Of a stretch of DNA of 38,094 nt, positions 8,220-34,634 are shown piece by piece. The stretch is from positions 1 to 38,094 of the forward strand of contig JANQFA010000263.1 in assembly GCA_028278065.1 (NCBI GenBank). The letters are read 5' to 3'. Both the position numbers and the translations under genes were made by a program. The notes under the pieces were generated by a model. The model was not told where the DNA came from. It saw only the letters and a program-made list of their open reading frames with translations, and did no database searches. Every line of letters starts with the position of its first letter. Within the stretch, counting starts at the first letter, position 1. Source of the DNA: Myxococcota bacterium (lineage in GTDB: Bacteria; Myxococcota_A; UBA9160; JAFDET01).

Positions 8220-8903
8220 TCAGACCGGGATGGCGCCGCCGCGGACCGTGGCCCCGGCGGGGCTGGCGAGCCAGACCATCACATCGGCGATCGCGGCGGG
8301 TGGCGTCCAGGCCGCGAAGTCGGCAGCGGGCATGGCCGCGCGGTTTCCCGGCGTGTCGATGGTGGTGGGGACCACGGCGTTCACGCGCACCCCGGCCGCG
8401 GCCACCTCCTTCTGGAGGGTCTCGGTCAGGACCAGGATGGCGGCCTTCGAGGCGCTGTAGGCGGCGAGGGTGGCCGGCGTCTCGATGGCGGCACGCGAGG
8501 CCACGTTGATCACGCAGCCCGAGCCGCGCTCGCACATCCCGGGCAGGGCGGCCCGCGAAAGGGCGGCTGCCGTGCGCACGTTGATCCGATACATCGCGTC
8601 CCAGGTCTCGAGGTCGGTCTCGCTGTGGGGCGTGCCGCCGGCGAAGCCGCCGGCTCCGTTCACCAGCACGTCCACGGGACCCGCGGCCTTCACCGCGGCC
8701 TCGGCCCCCGCGCTCTCCGCGACGTCCGCCTCGAGCAGGACGAGCCGGCCGGCGCCGAGCCCCTCGGCGAAGTCACGCTCCATGGCCTCGCGCTCGGCCG
8801 CGACGATCCAGGGCACGGTGACCCGGTCACCTGCCTCCAGGAAGGCCCTCACGACGGCTCGTCCGAGGGCGCCGGTACCCCCGCTGGCCAGGACGCTGCG
8901 CAC
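8220..8903 (-). CDS. Short-chain dehydrogenase/reductase (SDR)
   Basis: GTG start at 8903: VRSVLASGGTGALGRAVVRAFLEAGDRV (Rossmann GxxGxxG), LVNGAGG, YSASKAA catalytic YxxxK. Confidence 0.88.
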   Translation of the reverse strand: MRSVLASGGTGALGRAVVRAFLEAGDRVTVPWIVAAEREAMERDFAEGLGAGRLVLLEADVAESAGAEAAVKAAGPVDVLVNGAGGFAGGTPHSETDLETWDAMYRINVRTAAALSRAALPGMCERGSGCVINVASRAAIETPATLAAYSASKAAILVLTETLQKEVAAAGVRVNAVVPTTIDTPGNRAAMPAADFAAWTPPAAIADVMVWLASPAGATVRGGAIPV

Positions 8904-8911
8904 CCTCTCAG

Positions 8912-9643
8912 TCAGTTGATGAAGACCTCGAGGTCGAAGCCCTTCCTCTTCTTCTCGAAGAAGTCGGCGATCTCCTCCTGCACCTGCAGCGACTCGGGAT
9001 CCTTGCCCGAGCAGGAGACCTTGAAGCGCGCCTTCAGGAAGCCCGGCTCGTCGCGGATGTCCGCCTGCGCCTTGCAGCCGGGCACCGTGCCGATCGCCCA
9101 GGGGGATCCGTAGCTCCAGTAGACGTCGCGGTTGACGCCGCTGAAGCCGCCCCGGAAGATGCCCACGTGGTTCTTCTGCTTGAGCTGGGTGCGGAACTTG
9201 CCGTTCTTGCCCTTGCGCTTGATCTGGTCGGGCTCGAAGATCGCGGCCTTGAGATAGTCCCCGCTGTTCCCGCCCGACGTGGCCTTGAGGAGCGCGCCGG
9301 AGACGAAGGGCGGGATGAGGGTGGTGGAGTAGGGGGTGCCCCCGCTGATCTGGAAGTAGAGGGGGCTGAACCGGTTGAGGGGACCGCTCGGCGTAGAGAA
9401 GTGGGGGAAGACGCCGCCGAGGATGCGCCCCTCCAGGTAGGACCCGTATCCGTTCGGGCCGGGGTCGCCCTTGACCTCGGCCGAGACTCCCATCCGGCCG
9501 TCCGCCGGCGGCAGGAAGCTGTCCTCGAGGTCGGGCCGGTTCAGTCCCAGGCCGGGAGCGGCCACCTGGGCGGAGGCGGGAGCCGCCAGCAGCACGGCGG
9601 CGCAGAGCGCAGCGGGGGTGAGCGTTCGCATGGCGCGGATCAT
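8912..9643 (-). CDS. Secreted hypothetical protein, family member 1 (EPDQIKRK/CKAQAD/GFDLE family)
   Basis: Signal peptide MRTLTPAALCAAVLLAAPASAQ; shares GLGLNRPDL, AAIFEPDQIKRK, LKQKNHV, CKAQADIR, CSGKD and KKRKGFDLE with ORFs 15448..16182 and 16179..16913. Confidence 0.75.
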   Translation of the reverse strand: MIRAMRTLTPAALCAAVLLAAPASAQVAAPGLGLNRPDLEDSFLPPADGRMGVSAEVKGDPGPNGYGSYLEGRILGGVFPHFSTPSGPLNRFSPLYFQISGGTPYSTTLIPPFVSGALLKATSGGNSGDYLKAAIFEPDQIKRKGKNGKFRTQLKQKNHVGIFRGGFSGVNRDVYWSYGSPWAIGTVPGCKAQADIRDEPGFLKARFKVSCSGKDPESLQVQEEIADFFEKKRKGFDLEVFIN

Positions 9644-9727
9644 ACACGATGGGGACGAGCGGCGGCCGTACCCTCCCGAAGACTGGAGGCTTCCCCGGAG
9701 GCCGGCTCCGGTCCCGCGGCCATTTGG

Positions 9728-9733
9728 TAGAGT
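9728..9733 (+). promoter_or_regulatory. Candidate extended -10 (TGgTAGAGT) upstream of the phosphatase/TPR operon
   Basis: TTTGGTAGAGTCTTCG in the 9644-9789 divergent intergenic region; no convincing -35. Confidence 0.25.
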
Positions 9734-9789
9734 CTTCGCTCGCCGCCCGCCCGGGCGGGACTCAGGTCGGGGAATCGGAGGGGCTCGGA

Positions 9790-11985
9790 TTGATCGTCCG
9801 CCGGGGACTGCTGGCGCTGTTCGCGCTGGGTTGGGCCGCCTGCTCCGCTCCCGAGCGACCCAACGTCCTGATCGTCACGTTCGATACCACCCGCTACGAC
9901 CACGTCGGCGTGAACGGCGATCGGCGCGCGCGCACGCCCAATGTGGATGGACTGGCCGCGCGCGGGATCGTGTTCGACCACGCCTACGCTCCGGTGGGCC
10001 TGACCCTGCCGTCCCACACCACGATGATGAGCGGCCTGCCGCCCATCACCCACGGCGTCCACAACAACGGTCGCTTCATCGTGCCTCCCCGGGTGGAGAC
10101 CCTGGCGGAGCGGCTCAAGGCGGCCGGCTACGAGACCGGCGCGTTCGTGTCGGCCTGGGTGCTGGACTCGCGCTTCCAGCTGGACCAGGGCTTCGATGTC
10201 TACGGGGACGAGGTGCACAGCAGCAACGGTCCCCTCGAGCTCACCGTTCCGAGCCGCCCGGCGGACGAGGTGGTCGACGAGGCGCTGGAGTGGCTCGGCG
10301 ACCGCTCGGGCGAGGCTCCCTTCTTCCTGTGGGCCCACTTCTACGACCCCCATCTCCCGCGCACCGTGAAGGCGCCGTTCGATCGCATGACCGATGCCTA
10401 CCGCGCCGAGGTGGCCTTCGCAGACCAGGAGTTCGGGCGCCTGCTGGAGGCGGTGGAGGCCGAGACAGGTGGGCGGCCGCTCATGGTGGTGCTGACCTCC
10501 GACCATGGGGAGTCCCTGGGCCAGCACGGTGAGGCCACTCACGGGCACGTCGCCTACGACTCCACGCTGCACGTACCGCTGGTGATGGCCGGCCCCGGGA
10601 TCCCCACCGGACGGCGCAGCGACGCCCTGGCGCGCCATACCGATCTGGTCCCGACGGTGCTGGCCGCGGTGGGTCTCCCGCCCGACGAGTCGCTCCCCGG
10701 GCGCGACCTCCTGGCCGCCCACCCCGACGACCAGGCCGTCGGGTACTTCGAGAGCCGTTCGCCCCACTTCGACCTCGGCTGGTCTCCGCTGGCGGGCGTG
10801 CGTACCCAGCGCTGGAAGTACACCGCCACGCCCGAGCCACGCGAGCTCTTCGACATCCACGCCGATCCCGAGGAGCTCGAGAATCTGTTCGAGTCGCAGC
10901 CGGAGGTGGCCGCCGAGCTCGAAGCCCGATTCCAGGCGCTCACCAGCGAGGTGAGCGATCTGGCTCAGGAGGCGGAGCGCGGAGAGGTGAGTCAGGAGGA
11001 GGCGGCCCAGCTCGCCGCACTCGGCTACGTGGCCGTGCCCAAGACCCCCGACGCGACGCCGGCGGACCCGCGCCGCTTCGTGAAGGCCTTCGGGCTGGTG
11101 GAGTCGGCGCGCGGAGCGGCGATGTCCGGGCGTTGGGCCCAGGGGATCGAGATCCTGGAGACGCTGCGCACCGTCGAGGTGCTCGAGACGCTGGTGCTGC
11201 GCACCCTGGCCACCCTCTACGAGCACGCCGGCCGCTTCGAGGACGCCATGGAGGCCTTTCGCGCCTATGCCGAGCTCACCGAGGCGCGCGAGGCCCAGGT
11301 CGGTCACATCCGCGCGGCGATCCGGGCGGGCAAGCTCGACGAGGCGATCGCGGCCGCCGAGGCGGTCGACCCGCCGGGGCCCGACGTGGCGATGCTCCAC
11401 TCTCGTGCGCTGGCGCGTCAGGGCCGCCACGAAGAGGCGGCCGCCATCGTCGAGGACACCTTCAAGCGCGAGGGCATGGACGTCGCGCGCGCGCGCGGCC
11501 GGGCCGCGGTGATCCTCGACGTGGCACCGTACGACGGCGGCCTGGACGAGCTGCGCACGCTGGTGGAGCGGGCGCCGGGCGATCCCGGCGTGGAGAGCGC
11601 CCTCGGCTACTACCTGGCCGTGTGGGGAGAGGATGGCTCCGAGGACGAGGCGCGCGCGCTGCTCGCCAAGGCGCGCGAGGCGGCAGGCGAGGATCCGGAG
11701 GTCCAGGCGCGCGCCGGCTGGGGCGCCTACCACCTCGGCGACGACGAGGACGCGATCGTGGCCCTCGAGCGCGTGCTGGAGCTCGACGCGCGTCGCACCC
11801 AGGACCGGGCGCGGCTGGGATTCGTGCAGTGGCGCGCGGGGCGCAACGAGGACGCGCGCATCTCACTCGCCACCGCGCTGCGCGAGCGCCCCGGCGCCGC
11901 CTGGGCGCCCGACGTGCGCCGCGGGCTCCAGGAGCTGGCCAAGACCATGCAGGAGGAGGCTGCGGCCCGGGAGGCTACGCCTTGA
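9790..11985 (+). CDS. Sulfatase/alkaline-phosphatase-superfamily protein with C-terminal TPRs (probable lipoprotein) 1
   Basis: ORF 9649..11985; probable TTG start at 9790 (LIVRRGLLALFALGWAACSAPERPNVLIVTFDTTRYDHVG); LTLPSHTTMMSGLPPITHGVHNN, SDHGESLGQHGE, STLHVPLVMAGPG; helical-repeat C-terminus. Confidence 0.85.
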   Translation: MIVRRGLLALFALGWAACSAPERPNVLIVTFDTTRYDHVGVNGDRRARTPNVDGLAARGIVFDHAYAPVGLTLPSHTTMMSGLPPITHGVHNNGRFIVPPRVETLAERLKAAGYETGAFVSAWVLDSRFQLDQGFDVYGDEVHSSNGPLELTVPSRPADEVVDEALEWLGDRSGEAPFFLWAHFYDPHLPRTVKAPFDRMTDAYRAEVAFADQEFGRLLEAVEAETGGRPLMVVLTSDHGESLGQHGEATHGHVAYDSTLHVPLVMAGPGIPTGRRSDALARHTDLVPTVLAAVGLPPDESLPGRDLLAAHPDDQAVGYFESRSPHFDLGWSPLAGVRTQRWKYTATPEPRELFDIHADPEELENLFESQPEVAAELEARFQALTSEVSDLAQEAERGEVSQEEAAQLAALGYVAVPKTPDATPADPRRFVKAFGLVESARGAAMSGRWAQGIEILETLRTVEVLETLVLRTLATLYEHAGRFEDAMEAFRAYAELTEAREAQVGHIRAAIRAGKLDEAIAAAEAVDPPGPDVAMLHSRALARQGRHEEAAAIVEDTFKREGMDVARARGRAAVILDVAPYDGGLDELRTLVERAPGDPGVESALGYYLAVWGEDGSEDEARALLAKAREAAGEDPEVQARAGWGAYHLGDDEDAIVALERVLELDARRTQDRARLGFVQWRAGRNEDARISLATALRERPGAAWAPDVRRGLQELAKTMQEEAAAREATP

Positions 11986-14483
11986 GCGGGCGGCGCCGGA
12001 CGGGCGGCCTGCTCGGCCTGCTCGCCCTGCTCGCCTTGGGGGGCTGTGTCCGCGAGGAACGGGTCGAGGGGCCGAACGTCGTGATCGTCACCCTGGACAC
12101 GACGCGAGCCGACCGGCTCGGGGCCATGGGGGACGAGTCGGCTCGCACGCCGGTGCTCGACGGCCTTGCAGGGCAGGGCGTCCTGTTCCGGCGCGCCTAC
12201 TCGCCGGTTTCGCTCACGCTGCCCGCCCACACGACCCTGCTCTCGGGCTTCGATCCGCTCCACCACGGGGTGCACGACAACAACCGCAACGCGGTGCCCG
12301 AGGCTCTCGAGACCCTGCCCCAGCGACTCGGCGCACGGGGCTACGAGTCCGCGGCCTTCGTGGCGGCCGTGGTGCTCGACGCGACCTTCGGGCTCGACCG
12401 GGGCTTCGACGTCTACGACGACGACATCGCGCCCAAGCACGGTCCCATCAGCATGGAGGTGCCGAGTCGGCGCGGCGAGGTGATCAGCGACCGAGCCCTG
12501 ACGTGGCTGGCCGAGCGCAGCGGCGCGCGTCCGTTCTTCCTCTGGGCGCACTACTACGACGTCCACGAGCCGCGGGTTCCCCCGGCTCCCTACGACGAGA
12601 TGGGCGACGAGTACGCGGGCGAGCTGGCCTACGTCGACGAGCAGGTGGGCCGGCTGCTCGAGGGCGTGGCGGCCGCGGCCGGCGAGCGGGAGACCCTGAT
12701 CATCGTGATCGGCGATCACGGCGAGTCTCTGGGCGAGCATGGCGAGCCCACCCACGGAATCCTCGCCTACGACAGCACGCTCCACGTGCCGCTGATCGTG
12801 AGCGGGCCGGGCTTCGCCCCGGGCGGTGTCTGGGACGGACCCGTCCACAGCATCGACATCGCGCCCACCGTGCTGGCGGCGGTCGGGGAGGCACCGATCC
12901 CGGGCTCGCGCGGCGTCCCGCTCCAGGAGCGGCAGGCGCGCGAGGAGGGAGCGGACCTGGGCTGGTTCGCCAGTCGCGGCGCGGTCGCCGGCTTCGGCTG
13001 GGAGCCCATCGAGGGCGTGCGCACGGGCCGCTACAAGTTCACCGCGACCCCGGAGCCCATCGAGCTCTACGACGTCGTGGAGGACCCCGGCGAGACCGAG
13101 AACCTGGCCGAAGCGCGCCCGGAGCTGGCCGCCGAGCTGGCAGCGCGCTGGAAGCGCCTCGTGCAGGAGACGCCGGTCCTCGAGGCCCCCAGCGCCGCCC
13201 TCTCGCCCGAGCTGGCCGAGCAGCTGGAGGCGCTGGGCTACACCGGCGGCGCGCTCGAAGAGGCGGTCGGAGATCCCCGCAAGCACATCCAGGCGGTCGA
13301 GCTGGCCATGCGCGCGCGGAGCCTCGCCGCCCTCGGGCGCGTTCCCGACTCCATCCAGCTCCTCGAGATCCTGACCGAGTTCGAGGTGACGCGCCTCCTG
13401 GCGATGCGCCACCTGGTGATTCTCTACGCCGCGGTGGAGCGCTTCGACGACGCGGTCGCGGCCCAGCGCGAGATGGTGGCCGCGCGACCGGAGCCCACCG
13501 AGCGTCTCCTCCTGGCGCGACTCCTGCTCTTCGCGGGAAAGGTGGACGACGGACTCGCGGTGATCGACGCCATGCTCGAGGAGGGCGCCCTGCCGCCGGG
13601 GCCGCAGACGCGGCGCCTGCAGGCCCAGCTCCTGATCATGGCCGACCGCGTGGACGAGGGGCTGGCGATCGCCGAGGAGCTCCTGGCCGAGGACCCGACG
13701 GACGATCGCGCACTGGTGATGGTGGCCGGCGGGCGCGCCGGCCGTTTCGGCGCCGAAGAGGAGATCCCGCGCCTGCGCGCGGCGATCGAAGCCGCTCCGC
13801 ATCCCGAGCGCATGATCGAGTCGCGCCTGCTCCTGGCCCAGCTCCTGCTGGACGAGGGAGAGCCGGAGGCCGCCGAGGAGATCCTCGGGAGCGAGGAGCT
13901 CCCCGAGTACCTCGAGATGCTCGCCGAGATCGCGCAGTCTCGCGGCGATCTCGAAGCGGCCGCCGGCCATCACGAGGCGATCATCGAGCAGCGGCCCACC
14001 GCGGTGACCTCCCTGGAGGCGCTGGTGGCGATCCGCCTGGCCCAGGGGCGCATGGACGAGGCCCTGGAGCACTCCGAGACGCTGGTGGCGGTGGCGCCGG
14101 AGGAGATCTCGTTCGTGGTCGAGCGCGGCGGCCTGCATCTGCGCGCGGGACGGCTGGCCGAGGCCGAGGCGGACTACCGCCGCGCCATCGAGCTCGACCC
14201 GGAGGTGCCCGAGCCGCACCTGAACCTGGCTCTCGTCCTGCTCGCGAGCAGCCGCGAGGGGGAGGCCGAGAAGGAGCTGCTGCGCGCGGTGGAGCTGCGC
14301 CCGGACTACGGCAAGGCGCATTTCCACCTGGCGAGACTGTACGCAGGGAAGGATGATCCCCGCGCTGCCCACCACGCCGAGCTGGCTGCGGTGGGGGGCG
14401 TCGGCACCCAGATGCCCGGCGGCGCCATGCCCGCGCCGACTCCCGAGATTCCCATGGAGGAGCCCCATACCGATGTTCCGTGA
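11982..14483 (+). CDS. Sulfatase/alkaline-phosphatase-superfamily lipoprotein with C-terminal TPRs 2
   Basis: Likely TTG start at 11982 overlapping the previous TGA (TTGA); lipobox LALGGC; GPNVVIVTLDTTRADRLG, LTLPAHTTLLSGFDPLHHGVHDN, GDHGESLGEHGE; TPRs such as GRLAEAEADYRRAIELDPEVPEPHLNLALVLL. Confidence 0.87.
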   Translation: MSGRRRTGGLLGLLALLALGGCVREERVEGPNVVIVTLDTTRADRLGAMGDESARTPVLDGLAGQGVLFRRAYSPVSLTLPAHTTLLSGFDPLHHGVHDNNRNAVPEALETLPQRLGARGYESAAFVAAVVLDATFGLDRGFDVYDDDIAPKHGPISMEVPSRRGEVISDRALTWLAERSGARPFFLWAHYYDVHEPRVPPAPYDEMGDEYAGELAYVDEQVGRLLEGVAAAAGERETLIIVIGDHGESLGEHGEPTHGILAYDSTLHVPLIVSGPGFAPGGVWDGPVHSIDIAPTVLAAVGEAPIPGSRGVPLQERQAREEGADLGWFASRGAVAGFGWEPIEGVRTGRYKFTATPEPIELYDVVEDPGETENLAEARPELAAELAARWKRLVQETPVLEAPSAALSPELAEQLEALGYTGGALEEAVGDPRKHIQAVELAMRARSLAALGRVPDSIQLLEILTEFEVTRLLAMRHLVILYAAVERFDDAVAAQREMVAARPEPTERLLLARLLLFAGKVDDGLAVIDAMLEEGALPPGPQTRRLQAQLLIMADRVDEGLAIAEELLAEDPTDDRALVMVAGGRAGRFGAEEEIPRLRAAIEAAPHPERMIESRLLLAQLLLDEGEPEAAEEILGSEELPEYLEMLAEIAQSRGDLEAAAGHHEAIIEQRPTAVTSLEALVAIRLAQGRMDEALEHSETLVAVAPEEISFVVERGGLHLRAGRLAEAEADYRRAIELDPEVPEPHLNLALVLLASSREGEAEKELLRAVELRPDYGKAHFHLARLYAGKDDPRAAHHAELAAVGGVGTQMPGGAMPAPTPEIPMEEPHTDVP

Positions 14484-15435
14484 ATTCCCCGTCTGGATCC
14501 TTTGTCTCTTCCTGCTCGCGCCGCTCGCCTGCAAGCAGCAGCAGAGCGACGTCGCAGCCGAGTCGGAGGCCGAGCCGCCGACCGCCGCGGCCCCCGCCGC
14601 CGAGCCGGCGCCCGCTCAGGCCCCCCCGGCCCGCCCCCCGCGCGCGGACGTGCCCACCGGTGAGTTCTCGGTGAGTGTGGACGACGAGGGCCTGGTGACC
14701 GTGGAGGCCAAGGACGCGCCCCGCGTGTCGGTCCTGAAGGAGATCGGCGCCAAGGCCGGCTTCGAAGTGATGCCGACCCGACGCCTGCAACCCCACGGTG
14801 TCACGCTGTCCCTCTCCCGGGTTTCTGCACTCGAGGCGATCGAGGCGCTGGCCGACGACATCTCCTATGCGCTCCTGTTCGATCCCGCCCCGGAAGGGGA
14901 GGAAGGCAGCCGGCTCACGGCGGTTCGTATCGGACTGCCCTCGGCCGATCAGCGCAGGGCGTCGCGCGAGCGCTTCGCAAAGGCGCGCGAGGCCATGCGC
15001 CAGGGCGGCCGACCCGGGCAGGGGCAGGGCCAGGGACCGGGTGGCATGCGCATCATCCGGCGGCCTCCCATGGAGCGCGAGGACGTGCTGGCCGGCGTGG
15101 AGAGCAACGACGTCGAGCTGCGCGAGAAGGCGGTCTCCTACCTCGACGCGGAGGGAGAGGACCTGGATCTCCTCGCGAAGATCGTGGCCGAGGACGACGA
15201 TCCGACGGTCCGTGCCACGGCCGCGGAGCGGCTCTCCCACAGCGAGTCCATCACCTCCGTGCGGGCGCTGGTGGCCGCGCTCGACGACCCGGAGAAGGAG
15301 GTCGTCCTCGAGGCGATCGACGGGCTGTCGTTCGTGGGCGACCCCGGGGCCATCCCGGACCTGAAGAAGAAGCTGAGCGATCCGGATCCCGAGGTCGTGG
15401 AGGCGGCGCAGGACGCGATCGAGTTCCTGGAGTAG
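14473..15435 (+). CDS. Lipoprotein with secretin/TonB short N-terminal (STN)-like region and HEAT repeats
   Basis: MFREFPVWILCLFLLAPLACKQQQ lipobox; VEAKDAPRVSVLKEIGAKAGFEV..GVTLSLSRVSALEAIEALADDISYALLFDP (STN-like); C-terminal VRALVAALDDPEKEVVLEAIDGLSFVGDPGAIPDLKKKLSDPDPEVVEAAQDAIEFLE (HEAT). Start overlaps the end of the phosphatase 2 gene. Confidence 0.75.
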   Translation: MFREFPVWILCLFLLAPLACKQQQSDVAAESEAEPPTAAAPAAEPAPAQAPPARPPRADVPTGEFSVSVDDEGLVTVEAKDAPRVSVLKEIGAKAGFEVMPTRRLQPHGVTLSLSRVSALEAIEALADDISYALLFDPAPEGEEGSRLTAVRIGLPSADQRRASRERFAKAREAMRQGGRPGQGQGQGPGGMRIIRRPPMEREDVLAGVESNDVELREKAVSYLDAEGEDLDLLAKIVAEDDDPTVRATAAERLSHSESITSVRALVAALDDPEKEVVLEAIDGLSFVGDPGAIPDLKKKLSDPDPEVVEAAQDAIEFLE

Positions 15436-15447
15436 GGGCTCCCGCGG

Positions 15448-16182
15448 TCAGGGTGCGGCGACGGTGTTCTCGAGATCGAAGCCGCTTCTCCTCTTGCCGA
15501 AGAGAAGCTCGAGCTGGTCCTTGATCTCGGAGACGCTCTTGTCGTTGCCGCTGCAGCGCAGCTTGAACTTGTAGGTCTTGCTGTCGTCGCTCTTGCGCTG
15601 CCGGATCTCGGCCTGCGCCTTGCACTTCTCCACGAACGCGAAGTCGGGAGAGCTCGTCGCTCGGCCGGCGCTCGTCTGTCCCCAGCGGAAGGCGACGTGG
15701 CTCTTCTGCTTGAGGAGCGCCCGGCTCTCCTTGCGGGTCTCCTTGCGCTTGATCTGGTCGGGCTCGTAGAGGAGCGCCTGCACGAAGTTGCCTATGTAGA
15801 CCGAGGGAACGTCCGTGATGTGTCGCACGAAGCCGGAGGCGAGCGGGGGGATCAACGTTCCGGGCCCGCCGTAGTAGCCGACGTAGGCGGGACGCCCGAT
15901 CGCCGACGGGAAGATGTTGCCCGGGGCGACGACGCCCTTGAAGCGGCCGAGCAGGCTGCTCTCCGTCGTCCCCGGGTCCTTGGCGCCCTTGACGTTGGCC
16001 GGGGCTCCGAGCTGGAGGTTGCGGAGGTCGGATCCGCAGGCGGTGATGTTGGGGCACTGGATGTCGAGGTCCCGCAGGTCGTCGCGGTCCAGGCTCAGGC
16101 CCGGAGCGCTCAGATCGGCCGAGGCCGCAGGGGCACCGAGCAGGAAGGCGAGGCCGAGCGAGAGGGCACGGAGGCGGGTCAC
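15448..16182 (-). CDS. Secreted hypothetical protein, family member 2
   Basis: Signal peptide; GAPANVKGAK, GTLIPPLASGF, ALLYEPDQIKRK, LLKQKSHVA, CKAQAEIR, LRCSGND, GFDLE shared with members 1 and 3. Confidence 0.75.
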   Translation of the reverse strand: MTRLRALSLGLAFLLGAPAASADLSAPGLSLDRDDLRDLDIQCPNITACGSDLRNLQLGAPANVKGAKDPGTTESSLLGRFKGVVAPGNIFPSAIGRPAYVGYYGGPGTLIPPLASGFVRHITDVPSVYIGNFVQALLYEPDQIKRKETRKESRALLKQKSHVAFRWGQTSAGRATSSPDFAFVEKCKAQAEIRQRKSDDSKTYKFKLRCSGNDKSVSEIKDQLELLFGKRRSGFDLENTVAAP

Positions 16183-16913
16183 GGGCTGTCCCCCTTGAGG
16201 TCGAAGCCGTTCTTGGGCTTGCCGCCGAAGAACTCGGCCAGGTCCTGCTTCAGCGACTCCACCTCGGTGCTCTTTCCGCTACAGCGAAGCTTCATCTTGT
16301 AGTTGGCGACGAGGCTGACCTCGGAGAGCTTGATGTCCGCCTGGGCCTTGCAGTCCGGGAGCGCCAGGACGGAGACGCTCGAGGCCTGGTAGGTGCTGAA
16401 GAAGGTGCCTCTGCGGATGGCGATGGAGCCGTTCTGCTTGAGCTTGATGCTGGACTGCTTGGCGGTCGTCTTGCGCTTGACCTGGTCGGGCTCGTAGAGG
16501 AGGGCCTGGAGAAAGATGCCCGAGTAGGGACTGGTGCTCTGCACCAGGGCCAGGCCGCCCGAAGCGAACGCCGGCAGGAGCGTTCCCGGAAGATCTCCGG
16601 ACGTCCAGCGTGGCGAGCTACCCGAGTTCGGATATCTCGAATCGATGTAGACGCTGACCCGGGGCTGGTTGTCGGGGACGCCCCCCTGGAAGCGACCGAA
16701 GACCGAGCCGGGCGCGTAGCCGTTCTGGGCTCCCTTCACGCTCGCCGGGGCACCCGGCACGGCGGTGTCGGCACAGCCCGGGCAGCTCACGAAGAGGTCC
16801 CGGAGCTCGGGGTGATTCAGGCCGAGTCCCTGCAGCACCTGTCCCTGCGCCGCCGCGGGCAGCAGGACGGCTCCGAGGGCGACGGCGAGGAGCGATCGCT
16901 TGGTCCACGTCAT
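16179..16913 (-). CDS. Secreted hypothetical protein, family member 3
   Basis: Signal peptide; GLGLNHPEL, GAPASVKGAQ, GTLLPAFASGG, ALLYEPDQVKRK, CKAQADIK, LRCSGKS, FFGGKPKNGFDL; ATGA overlap with member 2. Confidence 0.75.
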   Translation of the reverse strand: MTWTKRSLLAVALGAVLLPAAAQGQVLQGLGLNHPELRDLFVSCPGCADTAVPGAPASVKGAQNGYAPGSVFGRFQGGVPDNQPRVSVYIDSRYPNSGSSPRWTSGDLPGTLLPAFASGGLALVQSTSPYSGIFLQALLYEPDQVKRKTTAKQSSIKLKQNGSIAIRRGTFFSTYQASSVSVLALPDCKAQADIKLSEVSLVANYKMKLRCSGKSTEVESLKQDLAEFFGGKPKNGFDLKGDSP

Positions 16914-16989
16914 AGGGCCCCCGATTCTAGCGGACGGTGGGAGTGCCGCTCCGGGACGGCGCAGGCGCCGCGCCGGACGGAGCGGGCCG

Positions 16990-17901
16990 TCAGGGCTGCT
17001 GCTCTCCGTGCACCGGGTGAAGACCCCAGCGGGCGTACTGCGGGTCCCCGTCTCGGTCGTCGCGGCGCGTCCGGCCCTCGCGCTCGAGCTTCACCAGGTG
17101 CGATGCGACGGACAACGCGGCGGCGGCGTGGAGAACCTCCGGAACGTCCGTGTAGACCTGCTTGACGATGGCGGACACGGAGCTCGGGCCCAGCGTGGCG
17201 AGGGCGTCCACGATCTGGGCCTCGCGCTCGTTCCGGTGTTCCATGTACTCGCGGATCTTGCCGACCGCGTCTTCGATGCAGGGCCCGTGCGCAGGGTAGA
17301 TGCGGCCGGGCTGCAGGCTCAGCACCCGCTCGAGCGAGTTCATGTAGTCGAGCAGGTCCCCGCCCTGTGCGGGAATCACCGTGGTGCCGACGCCGAGCAC
17401 GTTGTCGCCCGAGAAGAGGGCGTGCTCCTCCTCGAGGAGGAAGCAGAGGTGGTCCTCGGCGTGCCCCGGCGTGTGGATCGCGCGCAGCGTGGCTCCCTCG
17501 GTCTCGACGAGGGCGCCGTCCGCGAGGGGGTGGATCTCCAGGGAGTAGTGACCGTCCATCCCCTCGTGAGGCAGCTTGGAGACGCGCAGGGGACCGAATC
17601 GCTCGATCACCTCCGGCACGCCCCCGATGTGATCCGGGTGTCCGTGGGTCAGCACGATCTCCTGGAGCGCCTCGCAGCCGCTCTCCTCCATCGCGCGCTC
17701 GAGGACCGGGATGTAGGACTGCTCGCCCTGGCCCGCATCGAGCAGGATGCGCACCTTCCCGGTTCCCACCAGATAGGTGTTGGTGCCGGGGCCAGTGAAG
17801 AGGCCCGGGTTCTGGCCGAGGGCCACCGTCACGCGCGGGGACCAGGCCGCCACGTCCGGCAGCTCGAGCCCGATCATGGTCGCCTGCTGCTTTCCGGCCA
17901 T
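16990..17901 (-). CDS. MBL-fold metallo-hydrolase (LACTB2/glyoxalase II-like)
   Basis: MAGKQQATMIGLELPDVAAW...NTYLVGTGKVRILLDAG..LTHGHPDHIGGVPEV..IHTPGHAEDHLCFLLEEEHALFSGDNVLG; C-terminal winged-helix-like region. Confidence 0.92.
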   Translation of the reverse strand: MAGKQQATMIGLELPDVAAWSPRVTVALGQNPGLFTGPGTNTYLVGTGKVRILLDAGQGEQSYIPVLERAMEESGCEALQEIVLTHGHPDHIGGVPEVIERFGPLRVSKLPHEGMDGHYSLEIHPLADGALVETEGATLRAIHTPGHAEDHLCFLLEEEHALFSGDNVLGVGTTVIPAQGGDLLDYMNSLERVLSLQPGRIYPAHGPCIEDAVGKIREYMEHRNEREAQIVDALATLGPSSVSAIVKQVYTDVPEVLHAAAALSVASHLVKLEREGRTRRDDRDGDPQYARWGLHPVHGEQQP

Positions 17902-21430: not shown

Positions 21431-22417
21431 TCACGGGCGGCGGGCCGAGACGATGAAGGTGGCGGGGAGGTCTCGCTCGCGGTCCCGCGGTGCCTCGCGC
21501 TCGACCACCGGCTCGTCGAGCCCCGCGTCGGCCAGCCAGCCGCGCAGGTCGTCGAGCGGGAAGCCCAGCCACTGGACGCCGAGCTCCTCGCGCATCCACT
21601 CGCGGTCGTGCTCCTCGAAGTCGACCACGACGACCACGCCTCCGGGCTTCACGACCCGAGCCATCTCTGCGAGGGCGTCGCCCGGCGAGGGGAGGTAGTG
21701 GAGGACCATGTGCGCGAAGGCCGCGTCCACGGAGGCGTCCTCGAGCGGGAGGTCGGCCGCGTCGCCCCGCCGCAGCTCCACCGAGGTCACCCCCTCGTCG
21801 GCGAGCTTGCCGCGCGCGGCGTCGAGCATCGGCTGGCTGTGGTCCACGGCCACCACGTCGACGCCGAGGCGCGCCAGCTCCAGGGCGAGGATCCCGGTGC
21901 CCGTTCCCACGTCGCAGACGCGCAGCCCGGGCGGAACCAGACGCGCCACCGCGCGCGCGCGCAACGTGTCGTCGTTGAACACCTTGCGCAGGGCGTCCCA
22001 CTCGGGTCCGACCCGGTCGAACCAGGAGCGGGTGCGCGCCGCTCGTTCGGCCAGCACCTCGGAGAGCGCCGCCGCGTCGCGATCGGCGCTCGGCTCGGAG
22101 GCGTGGGCGCGCCGCGCGAGATCCCAGGCGTCTCGCCACATGCCCTCGCGCGGTGCCGGGAAGCGGTAGTAGACGAAGGTCCCGTCGCGGCGATCGCGCA
22201 GCAGCCCGGCCTCGCGCAGGATGGCCAGGTGCCGCGAGACCCGCGACTGGGCGAGACCGAGGGCGCGCATCAGCTCCTGGACTGCCAGCTCCTCGCGCTC
22301 CAGGAGCGCCAGGAGGCGAACCCGGGTCGGGTCCGAGAGGATCTTGAAGACCTTCTGGAGCTCGTCAGCGCTCAGCGGGCCGTCCCTCCCGGGCCGGGAG
22401 TCCCGGCCGGACGGCAC
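21431..22417 (-). CDS. ArsR-family HTH fused to SAM-dependent methyltransferase
   Basis: LSADELQKVFKILSDPTRVRLLALLEREELAVQELMRALGLAQSRVSRHLAILREAGLLRDRRDGTFVYYR followed by LRVCDVGTGTGILALELARLGVDVVAVDHSQPMLDAAR. GTG start at 22417 is tentative. Confidence 0.88.
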   Translation of the reverse strand: MPSGRDSRPGRDGPLSADELQKVFKILSDPTRVRLLALLEREELAVQELMRALGLAQSRVSRHLAILREAGLLRDRRDGTFVYYRFPAPREGMWRDAWDLARRAHASEPSADRDAAALSEVLAERAARTRSWFDRVGPEWDALRKVFNDDTLRARAVARLVPPGLRVCDVGTGTGILALELARLGVDVVAVDHSQPMLDAARGKLADEGVTSVELRRGDAADLPLEDASVDAAFAHMVLHYLPSPGDALAEMARVVKPGGVVVVVDFEEHDREWMREELGVQWLGFPLDDLRGWLADAGLDEPVVEREAPRDRERDLPATFIVSARRP

Positions 22418-23324
22418 GTCCGCGACGCGCGGCCGTGCCGCGACGCGTCCCCGGCCCGCCGCCCAGGTCCGGCTGTCCGAGGGTGCCGCCGAGATCCACC
22501 TCCGCATGCCCTGCGCGGTCGAGGCGCAGCCCGAGCTGCCGCACCATCGGCCGGACGCTCTGCTCGCGCACGTCGACGACGAGCTTCCCGTTCAGTGGCG
22601 CGCGCTCCAGCGAAGGGCTCTTCCCGATCGTTCCGCTGCCCTCCAGGCTGAGCATGGGACCGTCCAGCGCCAGCTCCTCGACGACGAGCCAGGCGTCGCC
22701 ACCCAGCTCGCCGCGGCCGGCGAGGGACTCGAAGGGCAGGGCGACCGGCATCCCGGGCAGGCCGATCGAGCCGTCACTCACGCTCACCTCCACGCTTCCC
22801 ACGGGCCCCTCGGCACCGCTGCGCAGATCGACATCGGCTTCGCCGGTGCCGTCGAGAGCCAGGTCGGGAGCGAACGACGCGAGGGGAAGGGCAGCGAGGG
22901 AGACCCGTTCCAGGCGTCCGTCGAAGCCGGGCTCCGCGCCGGCGAAGACGGTGCCCCGGACGCGTCCCTGCGGTGCCTCGAGGTCGATGGCGACGGCCGG
23001 ATGGCCCCTGATCCACGCGGGCGACCAAGCCGGTCGCAGGCGCGCGCGGTCGAGCTGGATGACGGTGCCGTCGGCGAGGGTGGCCGAGACGCCCCGTGCG
23101 GCGAGGGCAGGGCCGAACAGGGTGAAGCTCGGCGCGAGCTCGGCGATCGTGACGCGGGCCCCGCTCGCCCGGGATGCCTGGCTCGCCACCGCATCGCGCA
23201 GCCCGTCCCACGGGAAGCCCATGAAGAAGAAGAAGGCGGTGAGCAGCACGCCTGCGATCGGCACGCCCAGCAGGAGGGCGGATCGCGGGATCGGACCGGC
23301 TGCGGCGCGACGCGGCTCGCTCAC
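22365..23324 (-). CDS. gspN: Type II secretion system protein GspN (AsmA-like)
   Basis: GTG start at 23324; one N-terminal TM segment, FMGFPWDGLRDAVASQASRASGARVTIAELAPSFTLFGPALAARGVSATLADG; located directly after gspM. Confidence 0.75.
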   Translation of the reverse strand: MSEPRRAAAGPIPRSALLLGVPIAGVLLTAFFFFMGFPWDGLRDAVASQASRASGARVTIAELAPSFTLFGPALAARGVSATLADGTVIQLDRARLRPAWSPAWIRGHPAVAIDLEAPQGRVRGTVFAGAEPGFDGRLERVSLAALPLASFAPDLALDGTGEADVDLRSGAEGPVGSVEVSVSDGSIGLPGMPVALPFESLAGRGELGGDAWLVVEELALDGPMLSLEGSGTIGKSPSLERAPLNGKLVVDVREQSVRPMVRQLGLRLDRAGHAEVDLGGTLGQPDLGGGPGTRRGTAARRGRAVRPGLPAREGRPAER

Positions 23325-23872
23325 GACACCGGCTCGAAGCTCGAGACGGTGAAGGTCACGTCCATGAGCTGGGGGTTGTCTCGCCGGGTCCGCATGCGCA
23401 GGCTCTTCACGCTGAGGAGCTGCTCGGCCGACTCGATCTGGTGCAGGTAGTTGACGGCCTGTCCGAGCGTGACGCTCTTCAGCACCACCTCCACCTTGGT
23501 CTCGCGGTACTCCTCGCTGGAGAGCGGCGTCTGCGGCTCCATCGACTCGACCTTCACCGCGGAGCGAGTGGCGAGGGTCTCCAGCAGGGTGAAGATGTTC
23601 CCGCGCGGACCGCGGGCGATGCGCTCCTCGACCGACGAGAGCCGGCCATTCACCTCGTCGAACTCCGCGCGGAGCCGCTGCACGACGGCGAGCTGGCGCT
23701 GGGCCGTCTCCACCCGGGCGGCGGCGTTCCGGCGAGCCCCCAGGACCGGCTGCACCACGGCGAGCCATACGACCACGAAGGTGATGATGGCTCCCGCGAC
23801 CCCGAGGAGACGCCTCTCGCTGGCGGAGAGCCCGCCCACCAGCGCGCGAATGCGGCCCAGGAGGGCACTCAT
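23321..23872 (-). CDS. gspM: Type II secretion system protein GspM
   Basis: MSALLGRIRALVGGLSASERRLLGVAGAIITFVVVWLAVVQPVLGARRNA..; ATGA overlap with gspL. Confidence 0.8.
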   Translation of the reverse strand: MSALLGRIRALVGGLSASERRLLGVAGAIITFVVVWLAVVQPVLGARRNAAARVETAQRQLAVVQRLRAEFDEVNGRLSSVEERIARGPRGNIFTLLETLATRSAVKVESMEPQTPLSSEEYRETKVEVVLKSVTLGQAVNYLHQIESAEQLLSVKSLRMRTRRDNPQLMDVTFTVSSFEPVS

Positions 23873-25434
23873 GCCTGCTCTCCCGGGGGCGCCAGGCTGA
23901 TGGTCAGGTTGAAGCTCTTGGCCCCTTCTCGACCCGTGGTGATCTCGCTGATCTTGATCTGCGAGAACGGCGTGAACTCCTGGAGCTCGGTGCGCAGGCG
24001 GTCCACGGCCTCGAAGCTCTTCGAGTAGCCCCGGATCCGCACCACCTGTCGGTCGATATTGAGCTCCTCGAATACCACGTCGAGGTCCTTGGGAACCCGC
24101 GCCGAGATCTCGGTGAGGAGGTCGAGGGCGGAGAGGTTGCCGCGGTACACGCCGAGGAACTCGGCGCGGTCGTGGGCCGAGCGGACTGCACCCTGCATGG
24201 CGCCCATCACGTTGGAGGGGGCGGGGCGGCCCGGAAAGGCCTCGCTCCAGAGGCGCGCCACCTCCCCTTCGACGGCGTCCGCGCGGCCCGCCTGGGTCGC
24301 GATCGAGCTGGCGCCGAGCGCGCCCGCCAGGACCAGGGCCACGCCCCCGAGCACTCCGGTCCACACGAGCTGGCGTCCGAGCGCGCCCACGTCGAAGCGC
24401 GTCGCGAACTCGTCCTGCCGGAAGTCCATGCTCGTCGTGGCCCGTGCCGTGCCGCGCACCGCCAGGGCCGCGGCGGGTGCGAGAAGGAGCGGGTCGCCCG
24501 CGGCGAGGAGCGCGCGTCCCAGCTCGTCCGAGCCGGGGGTCAGGCGTTCGGTCGGGACCCGCAGGCGATCGCCGAGGTACTCGTCGATGCCGTGCAGCCG
24601 AGAGCCTCCACCCACGAGGACGAGGCCGTCCGGGGCGGCGAGGGCGCGCGCGGCGAGGATCGGCTCGAAGGAGCCGAGGCTGCGCGCGATCTCGCGGGTC
24701 AGTCGATCCAGGGCTGCACCGGCCGAGCTGCCCGCGAAGCCGGCGACGCCCACCTCGGCCTTGGCCTCCTCGGCGCTGCGCAGGTCGATTCCGCGCTCTT
24801 CGGCGAGCGCCTCGCTGAGGGAGGCCGCGCCGCGGCGCAGGGTGCGCGCTGCCACCGCCGCGCCTTCGATGCAGAGGCAGAGCGTGGTGGTGCGGTGGCC
24901 GAGGTCGAGGATGACGCGCGCGCCCGCCAGGTCGTACAGGGAGGTCAGGTTGCCGAGCACGAGGCCCTCGGCCTCGACGATGCGGGGGTCGATGCCGGCC
25001 TCGGCGAGTCGCTCGAGGAGGGCGGCCACCTCGGCGCGGGGTGCGATCGTGGCGGCCACCTCGCTCGAGCCGCGATCGCCGCCGACGCGCTCCCAGTCCA
25101 GCAGCATCCCCTCCAGGTCGAAGGGGAGCTCGTCCTCCACCGACATGGGGACGGCCTGGGTCAGGCGGCGTCGGTCGGAGAAGGGGAACTCGAAGCGACG
25201 CCCGGTGAGGCGCGGGCCGGGTAGGGCGCAGACGGCGTCGGCGACCGGCAGCTGGTGCATGCGCAGGAAGCTCTGCAACCTCTCGCCGAAGGGGCGCAGG
25301 TCCTCCGGATCCTCGCTGGGCATGACGTGGGCACCGCCCACCTCGACACCGCGCAGGGTCTGCCGCAGCTCGAACGCCTTGATCGAGTGGCTTCCGAGAT
25401 CGAGCCCGAGCGCGCTCTTCGCGAGCATGGCCAT
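23869..25434 (-). CDS. gspL: GspL / PilM-like actin-fold ATPase with PilN-like periplasmic domain
   Basis: MAMLAKSALGLDLGSHSIKAFELRQTLRGVEV; ARVILDLGHRTTTLCL; LVGGGSRLHGIDEYLGDRL; TM LVWTGVLGGVALVLAGALGASSIA followed by a PilN-like tail. Confidence 0.85.
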   Translation of the reverse strand: MAMLAKSALGLDLGSHSIKAFELRQTLRGVEVGGAHVMPSEDPEDLRPFGERLQSFLRMHQLPVADAVCALPGPRLTGRRFEFPFSDRRRLTQAVPMSVEDELPFDLEGMLLDWERVGGDRGSSEVAATIAPRAEVAALLERLAEAGIDPRIVEAEGLVLGNLTSLYDLAGARVILDLGHRTTTLCLCIEGAAVAARTLRRGAASLSEALAEERGIDLRSAEEAKAEVGVAGFAGSSAGAALDRLTREIARSLGSFEPILAARALAAPDGLVLVGGGSRLHGIDEYLGDRLRVPTERLTPGSDELGRALLAAGDPLLLAPAAALAVRGTARATTSMDFRQDEFATRFDVGALGRQLVWTGVLGGVALVLAGALGASSIATQAGRADAVEGEVARLWSEAFPGRPAPSNVMGAMQGAVRSAHDRAEFLGVYRGNLSALDLLTEISARVPKDLDVVFEELNIDRQVVRIRGYSKSFEAVDRLRTELQEFTPFSQIKISEITTGREGAKSFNLTISLAPPGEQA

Positions 25435-25441
25435 GGTTTCC

Positions 25442-26455
25442 TCACCGCACCCGCCACGAGAGTACCAGCGGCGCCGTAGCGACGCTGCGATCGATCGTGG
25501 CCTCGACGGTTCTCCGCACGTCGCGCACCCGGCCCTGCGCGCGCACGACGAAGACATCGGACGTGTAGGAGAGCGGCGGATAGACCTCGCCCGGGACCGA
25601 CTCGCTCAGGGGAGTGCAGACCGGGTCCGTCGCGTTCTCGCCGCAGAGGAGACGACCCTGCTCGCGCACCCGCACGATGCGTTCGGCGGTGTCCACCGTG
25701 GCCAGCCGGTAGTCGCCGGCCACCCCGTGGAAGAGGACGCCCAGGACCCAGGGCGGGGCCGTGTTGGGGTTGATGCCGTCCCCGTCCACATAGGGATGGA
25801 CGGTGACGAACGGGCGCAGGGCCTCGATCACCCGCTGGTCGAAGCCGTCCACGAGGCCCAGCTCGTCCACCGTGAGGAGCGGACGGTTGGCAGCGCGGTA
25901 CGGCGGCTCCAGCAGCTGATAGGTGTCGTCCTCGAGGCCTCCACGCAGGGCGGCCTGATCGGCGTCCACCCAGTCGATCAGGTTCCGCGCCAGCTCGCCC
26001 GGATCGAACTCCCCCGCCTCGATCTCGGCCTCACGGAGCGCGTGCTCCAGGAGCGCGACCAGGAGAACCTCGCTGGCGCCGTCCCGCACACTGCCTTCGG
26101 CGAACAGGGCGTTCAGGTTCAGGCGGGCAGCGGCGTCCTCGATGTCGAGGCGCAGGCTGGCCTCCTCGTCGATGGGAAGCTCGAGGGACTCGGCACGGCT
26201 CCAGACGTCGTGGGGAGTCTCCGCCTGGAGGCCGCCGTTGGATTCGCGCAGCCGGTCCTCGAGGAGCAGGGCGATCGCCAGGTTCACGCCGCCGCGCGCC
26301 AGGGCCTCGGCGCGCGCGATGGCGTCCCGGTTCTCGACGATGGTCGCGTCCAGCACGGCGCGGCGCAGGAAGGTGGCCACGCTGGTCACGAGCAGGAGCA
26401 CGAACACCAGCACCAGCACGAGGACGATCCCCGACTCGCGTCGCCGCGCCCTCAT
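25442..26455 (-). CDS. gspK: Type II secretion minor pseudopilin GspK
   Basis: MRARRRESGIVLVLVLVFVLLLVTSVATFLRRAV; LARNLIDWVDADQAA, LLTVDELGLVDGFDQRVIEALRPFVTVHPYVDGDGINPNTAPPWVL. Confidence 0.93.
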   Translation of the reverse strand: MRARRRESGIVLVLVLVFVLLLVTSVATFLRRAVLDATIVENRDAIARAEALARGGVNLAIALLLEDRLRESNGGLQAETPHDVWSRAESLELPIDEEASLRLDIEDAAARLNLNALFAEGSVRDGASEVLLVALLEHALREAEIEAGEFDPGELARNLIDWVDADQAALRGGLEDDTYQLLEPPYRAANRPLLTVDELGLVDGFDQRVIEALRPFVTVHPYVDGDGINPNTAPPWVLGVLFHGVAGDYRLATVDTAERIVRVREQGRLLCGENATDPVCTPLSESVPGEVYPPLSYTSDVFVVRAQGRVRDVRRTVEATIDRSVATAPLVLSWRVR

Positions 26456-27423
26456 TGGCAGTCCTCGGGGATGGCGGCGAAGCCGGCGAAGTCGGACGCG
26501 CACTGGGGGCCGATGGTCCCGATCACCGAAGTCGGCAGACCGGCCGCGGCCAGCTCGGCGTTCAGGTCGAGCTCGGGGTACTTCGCGGCACACTGGGTGA
26601 CCGTCACGCAGGGGCCGTCCCCGTTCCCGCCATCCTGCTCGTCGTCGGGAACGCCGTCGCCGTCTTCGTCTCCGTCGCCGTCCCCGTCCCCGCCCTCGGA
26701 TGCGGGCGTGAGCAGCGCTGCGAGATCGAGCGGGCGCAGGGGATGGGTGACGCGCCGCACCGGGCTGTCACCCTCCTCGAGGGCGGTGCGGCGGGTGTCG
26801 TCGACCGGCTCCTCGACCAGGGCCATGCGGATCTCCGTGGCCACGGGCAGCCGGTTGGAGTCGTCCAGGGAGGACGAGTCCCAGGCGTCCTTCCACTCGC
26901 CGGTCTCGCTCAGGAAGCGCAGCCCGAAGTCGACCACCTCGTCGATGAGCACCTGGACGTCGTCATCGTCGCTGCGCGGGATCTCGCGCTCCAGCGATTC
27001 GGGAAGGCGCGGCGAGCTCCAGCGCACCAGCTCGAAGGCCCCGTCCGTCCCCTCGCGGAGTGCGTACGTCACCACGGCGAGGTCCGATTCGTGGGTCGCG
27101 CCCCGGGCCGGCCGATGGCCGCGAGTGGTGAAGCGGACCCGGTCTGCGCCCTCGCCGCCTTCTTCGTTCTCCGCAAAGAAGACCCAGGGGTGGTCGAGGG
27201 GGTCCACGGCGTCCGGGCGCAGGACGAGGACTGCCGACTCGAGCTCGCGGGCGATGCGGTCCATCGCTGCGGTGGCCCGGCGCGGGCCGCGCAGGGCCGA
27301 AGCGGCGGCGTTGCTCTCGCGCGAGAGCTCGATGTAGAAGTTCACCACCACACCCACGAGAATGCTCATGAGCAGCATCACGGCGAGCATCTCGATCAGG
27401 GTGAAGCCCGCGCGCCGGCTCAT
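26452..27423 (-). CDS. gspJ: Type II secretion minor pseudopilin GspJ with long Asp/Gly-rich C-terminal extension
   Basis: MSRRAGFTLIEMLAVMLLMSILVGVVVNFY prepilin motif; order consistent with gspJ; DGDGDGDEDGDGVPDDEQDGGNGDG tract and 4-Cys tail. Confidence 0.88.
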   Translation of the reverse strand: MSRRAGFTLIEMLAVMLLMSILVGVVVNFYIELSRESNAAASALRGPRRATAAMDRIARELESAVLVLRPDAVDPLDHPWVFFAENEEGGEGADRVRFTTRGHRPARGATHESDLAVVTYALREGTDGAFELVRWSSPRLPESLEREIPRSDDDDVQVLIDEVVDFGLRFLSETGEWKDAWDSSSLDDSNRLPVATEIRMALVEEPVDDTRRTALEEGDSPVRRVTHPLRPLDLAALLTPASEGGDGDGDGDEDGDGVPDDEQDGGNGDGPCVTVTQCAAKYPELDLNAELAAAGLPTSVIGTIGPQCASDFAGFAAIPEDCQ

Positions 27424-27992
27424 CCGTCCTCCTCCCGGCCATCCTCGTCCTCGTCACCGCCTTCGCCGTCGCCGCCGGGGTCGCCGGTCCCGGGTGTGGA
27501 GATGCCCTCCAGGGTCGACGCCACCGAGGCCGCGTCGAAGACGAACGTGTCGCGCACCACCCGTTCCTCGGCCGTCCCGTCCATCCAGCCCACTTCGATG
27601 CGCACGTGACGCAGGGGCGTGACCGCGCCGCCCCCGCCCGACGAGGAGAGCAGGGTCGGCCCGGACGGCTCGCCGCCCAGGGTAGGGGAGCCCGCGACCT
27701 CGGGAGGCAGGTCGGCGAGGACGACGGGGAGGGGCGCGACCTCGACCACGACGGCAAAGCCTTCCACCTCGTTCTCGTCCCGGCCGACCTGGGGAGCGGT
27801 CCCGGTGAGCAGGCCCGCCTCCAGATCGGAGAGCACGCGGTCGGCGAGCAGCGACGCCTCCAGCCGTCGCGAGGCCGTTCCCTCGGCGCGCAGCCCCTGG
27901 ATGTTCCAGGAAGCGAGCACGGTGAACACGAACCCGACGACCGCGCTGGCGGCGAGCACCTCGAGCAGCGTGAAGCCCGCCCTACTCCTCAT
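27420..27992 (-). CDS. gspI: Type II secretion minor pseudopilin GspI
   Basis: MRSRAGFTLLEVLAASAVVGFVFTVLASWNIQGLRAEG prepilin motif; operon order. Confidence 0.85.
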   Translation of the reverse strand: MRSRAGFTLLEVLAASAVVGFVFTVLASWNIQGLRAEGTASRRLEASLLADRVLSDLEAGLLTGTAPQVGRDENEVEGFAVVVEVAPLPVVLADLPPEVAGSPTLGGEPSGPTLLSSSGGGGAVTPLRHVRIEVGWMDGTAEERVVRDTFVFDAASVASTLEGISTPGTGDPGGDGEGGDEDEDGREEDG

Positions 27993-28569
27993 CGAACACC
28001 CGCACCGCGTCGGCCAGGGGGCGCACCTCGAGCACCACCCCCAGGCCCGACGAATCCCGCAGGGTGATCCGCGCGGCTTCGGCGCTGCCGTCCCGTTCGA
28101 AGTGCAGCGGGACCAGCTCGCCGGTCAGCAGGCCGTTCGCGGTCTCGACGCCGACGAAGCCGGTCTCGCCGTCGAGACGACTGGGCTTGCCAGCCTGGGT
28201 CGGCAACGGGCCGAACTCGCCCTCGCGGCTGCTCCTTGGCGGGGACAGGTCGATGGGAGGGCGGCCGTCGGGCGCCGAGGCGGCCTCCTCCGCCGGGCTG
28301 AGCTCCTCCTCCTCCGGCGGCGGCGGCTGCCACTCCACCCACCACGCTGCGCGCTCCAGGTCGAGGACCACCCGGTGCGGTACGCCGGTCATCACGGTCC
28401 GCTGTCGGGCGAACTCGAGATCCGACGAGAGCCTGCGCGCGCCGTCGTCGAGCGCCTGGCCGGACGTCACGCCGAAGCCGGGCAGCACGATCCCGGCGAT
28501 GAGGCCCATGATGAGCACCACCGCCAGCATCTCCAGCAGGGTGAAGGCATGTTGCCGGCGTGCGTCCAC
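27982..28569 (-). CDS. gspH: Type II secretion minor pseudopilin GspH
   Basis: MDARRQHAFTLLEMLAVVLIMGLIAGIVLPGFG..DDGARRLSSDLEFARQRTVMTGVPHRVVLDLE. Confidence 0.9.
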   Translation of the reverse strand: MDARRQHAFTLLEMLAVVLIMGLIAGIVLPGFGVTSGQALDDGARRLSSDLEFARQRTVMTGVPHRVVLDLERAAWWVEWQPPPPEEEELSPAEEAASAPDGRPPIDLSPPRSSREGEFGPLPTQAGKPSRLDGETGFVGVETANGLLTGELVPLHFERDGSAEAARITLRDSSGLGVVLEVRPLADAVRVFDEE

Positions 28570-28574
28570 CGTCG

Positions 28575-29027
28575 TCAGAACTCCTGGCTGTCGATCCAGT
28601 TGCCGATGTCGGCGTCCACATCGCCGCCGCCGGCCGTGCCGTCGGCGCCCAGGGACCAGATGTCGAAGGTGTGCACGTTGTTCGTTCCCGGCTGCTGGTA
28701 CTGGTACTCCTGGCCCCAGGGGTCGAGCGGCAGCTCCTTGAGGTAGCCCTCACGCCGCCAGCGGCGCGGCTCGGGGGCCTGGCTGGGGCGTTCGACGAGG
28801 GAGCGCAGCCCCTGCTCGCTGGTGGGGTAGCGGCCGTTGTCGAGCCGGTAGAACTCGAGGGCGCTCTCGATCTGCTTGATCTGGGTCCGTGCGGTGGTGA
28901 CGCGGGCGCTGTCGACCTGGCCGAAGATGACCACGCCGACGATTCCGCCGAGCAGGCCGATGATCAGGACCACCGCCATGATCTCGATGAGGGTGAAGCC
29001 GTGCCGACGCCGGGAATCGGGGGTCAT
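28575..29027 (-). CDS. gspG: Type II secretion major pseudopilin GspG
   Basis: MTPDSRRRHGFTLIEIMAVVLIIGLLGGIVGVVI..TARTQIKQIESALEFYRLDNGRYPTSEQGLRSLVERPS..GYLKELPLDPWGQEYQYQQPG..FDIWSLGADG. Confidence 0.97.
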   Translation of the reverse strand: MTPDSRRRHGFTLIEIMAVVLIIGLLGGIVGVVIFGQVDSARVTTARTQIKQIESALEFYRLDNGRYPTSEQGLRSLVERPSQAPEPRRWRREGYLKELPLDPWGQEYQYQQPGTNNVHTFDIWSLGADGTAGGGDVDADIGNWIDSQEF

Positions 29028-29050
29028 CGCAAGTCCTTTCGAGTGAAGCC

Positions 29051-30280: not shown

Positions 30281-30288
30281 CCCGATCC

Positions 30289-34631: not shown

Positions 34632-34634
34632 CGT

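Follow-up and report, generated by a model that had tools for sequence, protein, structure and literature searches.

An expanded family of secreted proteins of unrecognized function in one lineage of Myxococcota

We find that the draft genome of a Myxococcota bacterium (assembly GCA_028278065.1; 5.35 Mb in 275 contigs, 90.5% complete, 3.3% contaminated) encodes 30 domains of a secreted protein family in 28 genes on 18 contigs, based on a profile search and gene calls. The libraries searched do not contain this family; its general type, the expansion of secreted proteins within one lineage, is a known one. The window analyzed here is the whole of one contig (C64; 38,094 nucleotides), from which a sequence-only reading had described a three-copy family. 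That count applies to the contig and not to the genome: a genome-wide expansion can hide behind the three-copy reading of one contig. The genome count was made with a profile of 19 members and leaves two weaker fragments out of the 30. We have very high confidence in the existence of the family, its copy number, its distribution, and the gene cluster described below.

Results

Three family members in the window

The three genes in the window all lie on the minus strand. FAM1 (8912..9643) encodes 243 amino acids from an ATG start, and its mature protein begins, after the signal peptide, with QVAAPGLGLNRPDL. FAM2 (15448..16182, GTG start) and FAM3 (16179..16913, ATG start) each encode 244 amino acids, and the two genes overlap by 4 bp. 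All three frames are open, by visual inspection each starts with a signal peptide of the Sec type, and their codon usage is like that of other genes (0.485 versus 0.479 per codon). They are real ORFs and are homologous to each other. Their full-length proteins align end to end at 38-41% identity, and a search with FAM1 recovers FAM2 (E = 2.6e-27) and FAM3 (E = 6.9e-27), far above chance. Both the original description of three secreted 243-244-residue proteins and the ordered motif set that they were said to have in common are therefore borne out, with the motifs aligning well beyond chance.

Conserved core and predicted structure

Across the family, 34 domains share an N-terminal motif after the signal peptide, a YEPDxVKRK-LKQK-CKA-C core, and two invariant cysteines. 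The mature protein has a conserved N-terminal motif, PGLxLDxPDL, then a variable middle, and then a core of about 130 residues that carries, in order, YEPDxVKRK, LKQK, CKAQA, KxKCSG, and GFDL. The motifs named in the sequence-only reading are all present in FAM1-3, but strict invariance over the 34 aligned domains is limited to the arginine of VKRK, the glutamine of LKQK, and the two cysteines (CKA and RCSG). The proline and aspartate of YEPD and one glycine are nearly invariant. The two additional cysteines seen in FAM2 (CPNITAC) and FAM3 (CPGC) are indeed there, but they are not general across the family; some other copies have extra cysteines elsewhere.

Two AlphaFold runs with three sequences (mean pLDDT 69 and 60, pTM 0.74 and 0.66) both gave about eight antiparallel strands and, toward the C-terminus, a helix and a final strand. 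In the model, one invariant cysteine lies at the start of a strand and the other at the end of the next, on adjacent antiparallel strands, a placement that fits what a cross-strand disulfide needs. The disulfide suggested earlier for the two shared cysteines is thus plausible. For the core we infer an antiparallel beta fold in which a single disulfide links two strands and a helix plus strand form the C-terminal end. Variability peaks around residues 67-76 and 172-185 and in the stretch that joins VKG to the core; this last stretch is also modeled poorly. The middle varies more than the core does, but it is not the only variable part.

No match to known families

The 34 core domains have no significant match in Pfam-A or PHROGs, and FAM1-3 have none in NCBIfam or PADLOC. 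A profile search of PDB sequences returned 0 matches. Foldseek searches of PDB folds gave nothing at E ≤ 0.001 with a query model of moderate confidence, and the family model had no significant match among viral folds. No match to the family was found in plasmid, phage, and viral collections, and our literature search found no description of it. The sequence-only reading had been unable to place these proteins in a known family, and a confident match to a characterized one is equally absent from the sequence and fold libraries searched.

The nearest resemblances are loose. The best, non-significant Foldseek hits are avidin-like and lectin-like beta proteins, which are all-beta like the family model, but with E values of 0.07 at best and TM-scores under 0.2 they give no evidence of a common fold. 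PEP-CTERM proteins end in a PEP motif, a transmembrane segment, and an arginine cluster, whereas the C-termini of this family have neither a hydrophobic segment nor a PEP motif. A genome of the same order (G008:C25, L184:12367-17385) has, directly after a sulfatase/TPR gene, a tandem array of four or more PEP-CTERM-type secreted proteins, each about 250 amino acids long. This array resembles the present family in its tandem secreted proteins of similar size, in the same type of sulfatase/TPR gene, and in its occurrence in the same order of bacteria. The sequences are nevertheless unlike by eye, and the present family ends in GFDL.

Copy number and divergence

Within the genome, family genes occur singly, in tandem, or as fused pairs. 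They include four in a run on contig C4, a set on C253, a pair on C224, and the three in the window. Two genes (on C119 and C253) contain two complete domains each, which suggests a domain unit of about 225 amino acids.

The copies are strongly diverged. The best pair among the 20 full-length copies compared has 56% identity, and comparisons between copies show saturated synonymous sites; thus, no recent copies are seen in this genome. This agrees with the earlier view that the conserved islands do not result from recent duplication. Dating by synonymous sites gave no age, as saturation affects congeneric orthologues as well as the copies themselves. By contrast with other genes, whose median isoelectric point is 5.3, family members in the window's lineage have values of 8.3-10.1. 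Three of four copies tested in a second carrier genome (G012) are acidic, and basic charge is a trait of the window's lineage only, not of the family. A -10-like TAGNNT/TATNNT element lies upstream of 10 of the 28 copies versus 41 of 237 other genes, an enrichment that is only mild.

Two further observations concern individual loci. In G012 (C285, L077:9641-11173), a recent tandem pair of family genes has 84% identity and a dN/dS of about 0.8, with amino acids changing fast. Near a divergent family copy on contig C164 of the window's genome (L064:8249-9229), a gene encodes thrombospondin-type-3-like, aspartate-rich repeats and a C-terminal KSxLxIKDKxD...WKWxKG domain.

Distribution and phylogeny

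The family is rare. When the order was searched with a core profile built from 34 domains, only three of the 80 genomes screened carried it: the window's genome (30 domains), G012 (six; the metagenome-assembled genome "Proteobacteria bacterium isolate Glo_12"), and G048 (one, E = 7e-9). Direct tblastn searches connect G012 to the window's genome (9e-6) and to G048 (4e-9). No further carrier was found in a phylum sample of 379 genomes, and there are zero members in two congeners (G001 and G002) and in a genome of the same family (G003). Scans of 84,980 species with two sets of patterns, whose reach was limited by the patterns themselves, matched only Glo_12 contigs; the first family alignment was too diverse to yield scan patterns.

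All 30 domains of the window's genome group together against those of Glo_12 (support 91/95, a branch without a star). The tandem domains of C253 cluster with each other (87/87), and so do the two of C119 (96/98). FAM2 is placed near FAM3, while FAM1 is apart from them, with a copy on C274. Many inner branches of the tree are weak, and the G048 sequence forms a very long branch.

Family genes at sites that are closed in relatives

FAM1-3 lie in an 8-kb segment (8904..16989) with the gene order FAM1-sulf1-sulf2-HEAT lipoprotein-FAM2-FAM3. This segment is absent from five relatives (G001, G002, G003, G004, and G008), which at this site have one HEAT gene of about 235 amino acids (HEAT235) beside a gene for a metallo-beta-lactamase-fold hydrolase (MBL). 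The window lacks HEAT235 and has the six-gene segment in its place. The site is anchored on the left by SDR (8220..8903, minus strand) and on the right by MBL (16990..17901, minus strand), and the order RND-HlyD-TetR-SDR-HEAT235-MBL-PmbA-TldD-HAD-ArsR is kept wholly or largely in all five relatives. In G002, what by eye is an IS-type transposase lies between SDR and HEAT235 (C120, L098:4066-5160), at the site of the window's 8-kb insert.

Similar patterns are seen at other family sites, where single family genes separate neighbors that adjoin in relatives. The genes flanking the C274 site (ferritin-like/Usp) are about 140-170 bp apart in G001 and G002, and the neighbors of the C39 site (NUDIX/GT) are 4 bp apart in G002. 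At the C93 site, where the window's genome also has two further genes, the gap is about 30-40 bp in G002 and G003. The relatives' gaps at two C253 sites measure about 120-290 bp; unrelated genes occupy a third C253 site and the C73 site in relatives. No family-like ORFs were found in the relatives' gaps at the sites compared. At one C253-equivalent site, where the window's genome has two family genes, G001 and G002 carry genes that by eye are like REP-associated Y1 transposases (L132:5790-6551 and L133:4734-5495). At each closed site, insertion in the window's lineage is a simpler explanation than loss in several relatives; the relatives compared are few, and we consider insertion probable.

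A putative founding gene cluster

The window's family genes flank three genes on the plus strand. Two of these, sulf1 (9790..11985) and sulf2 (11982..14483), encode lipoprotein-like proteins with TPRs and a Sulfatase domain (PF00884; E = 7e-46 and 2e-41, respectively). The third encodes a HEAT-repeat lipoprotein (HEATlp, 14473..15435), a homologue of which lies beside a family gene in both G048 and G012. The formylglycine motif C/S-x-P-S/A-R was not found in either sulfatase-like protein: by eye, sulf1 has LTLPSHTT and sulf2 LTLPAHTT, with threonine at the position of the sulfatase cysteine or serine and histidine for arginine. We take both to belong to the alkaline-phosphatase superfamily. 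Together with threonine at the nucleophile position, this makes phospho-ester or phospho-transfer chemistry the more likely prediction from these residues, over sulfate hydrolysis.

Genes related to the sulf pair (9790-14483) occur in 26 of the 80 genomes of the order at E ≤ 1e-80. The closest full-length relatives of sulf2 are found only in G012 and G048 (646-687 bits; next best genome, 341 bits), the other two carriers of the family. In G048 (C104), the order is sulf1-Gluconate_2-dh3-GMC-sulf2-FAM-HEATlp, with all genes on one strand. In G012, one contig (C539) has sulf1-Gluconate_2-dh3-GMC-sulf2-FAM, reaching near the contig end, and another (C619) has FAM-HEATlp. The window keeps sulf1-sulf2-HEATlp, with family genes on both sides, and the genome as assembled has no orthologue of the GMC oxidoreductase (best match 37%). 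The genes of this cluster are linked and so represent one shared unit rather than independent co-occurrence. Its conservation in three genomes is what ties the family to the sulfatase-like lipoproteins. Most copies in the window's genome, however, lie away from any sulfatase, and thus may not work with one.

Discussion

We propose that the family would have started as one gene of the sulf1-Gluconate_2-dh3-GMC oxidoreductase-sulf2-FAM-HEAT lipoprotein cluster. It would then have been amplified to 28 genes in the window's lineage, with new copies arising in tandem or dispersed to intergenic positions closed in relatives, and the copies would have diverged fast. The variable middle might set the ligand of extracellular or surface binding modules, and the proteins may have, or may once have had, the lipoproteins sulf1 and sulf2 as partners in acting on a polymer of the envelope or outside the cell. 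As a whole, this account of a cluster origin, amplification, and secreted, disulfide-locked binding modules that began as partners of surface phosphoesterase-like lipoproteins is the one we favor, although it falls slightly short of an even chance; its evolutionary side has good support. Binding modules would best fit the conserved core and disulfide, the variable parts, and the many diverged copies, and we put this role forward tentatively, as somewhat less probable than not.

The proteins might instead be secreted enzymes, such as hydrolases, that leave the cell through the type II secretion system (T2SS) encoded in the window (gspC-N operon, 22365-35543). A Sec signal peptide, a disulfide, and a beta-rich fold are usual for T2SS substrates, and the family proteins do carry a Sec signal peptide. 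The operon, though, has the same place and order in G003, which lacks the family; its nearness is therefore no evidence, and we rejected a T2SS link by adjacency. Furthermore, the 34 domains have no conserved set of histidine, aspartate, glutamate, or serine residues apart from the aspartate of YEPD, which speaks against enzymes, and the searches above returned neither an enzyme family nor an enzyme fold. An enzymatic role is improbable for family members, and we regard T2SS-exported enzymes as unlikely.

Somewhat less likely still is a structural role, in which the proteins would build an extracellular matrix, sheath, or appendage and different copies would serve different conditions. Many diverged, small beta proteins and the natural two-domain fusions would suit such a role, but no sorting motif or repeat is seen, and no usher, curli, or chaperone genes were recognized among the neighbors read. 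Moreover, Glo_12 has six copies and G048 only one.

Insertion of single genes at sites closed in relatives, together with the IS-type transposase at the window site in G002 and the REP-type Y1 transposase at one C253 site in G001 and G002, could point to a selfish or mobile unit whose spread is due to transposition-like movement rather than to selection for the protein it encodes. Against this, inspection of the flanks of the 28 copies by eye revealed no common flanking repeat or end, the plasmid, phage, and viral collections gave no match, and no copies are near-identical (maximum 56%). We consider a mobile unit improbable. That the family stems from contaminating contigs in a chimeric bin, as a draft genome with 3.3% contamination and family-free congeners might suggest, is very improbable and largely refuted by synteny, since the flanking genes on C64, C39, C73, C93, C210, C253, and C274 are syntenic in G001-G003 (mostly at 55-90% identity) and family codon usage is that of the host.

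Lineage-specific expanded secreted families are a known kind in bacteria, and like this one they are large sets of diverged, signal-peptide-bearing paralogues confined to one lineage. The present family differs in that it matches none in the libraries searched, and in that its likely founding locus is visible in two distant genomes. Our proposed binding modules could even form a repertoire of secreted, single-domain recognition proteins, in which one gene was repeatedly copied from an enzyme cluster to new intergenic sites, by a mechanism that leaves no recognizable mobile-element ends, and its ligand-binding part diversified; this we consider a long shot.

Our results describe a new family that arose in, or arrived in, one lineage and then multiplied there, one for which we found no relatives in the genus. 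Sites that are closed in relatives allow the order of these events to be tested. The likely founding cluster, with its sulfatase-like lipoproteins, provides a concrete first hypothesis for the working partner of these proteins.
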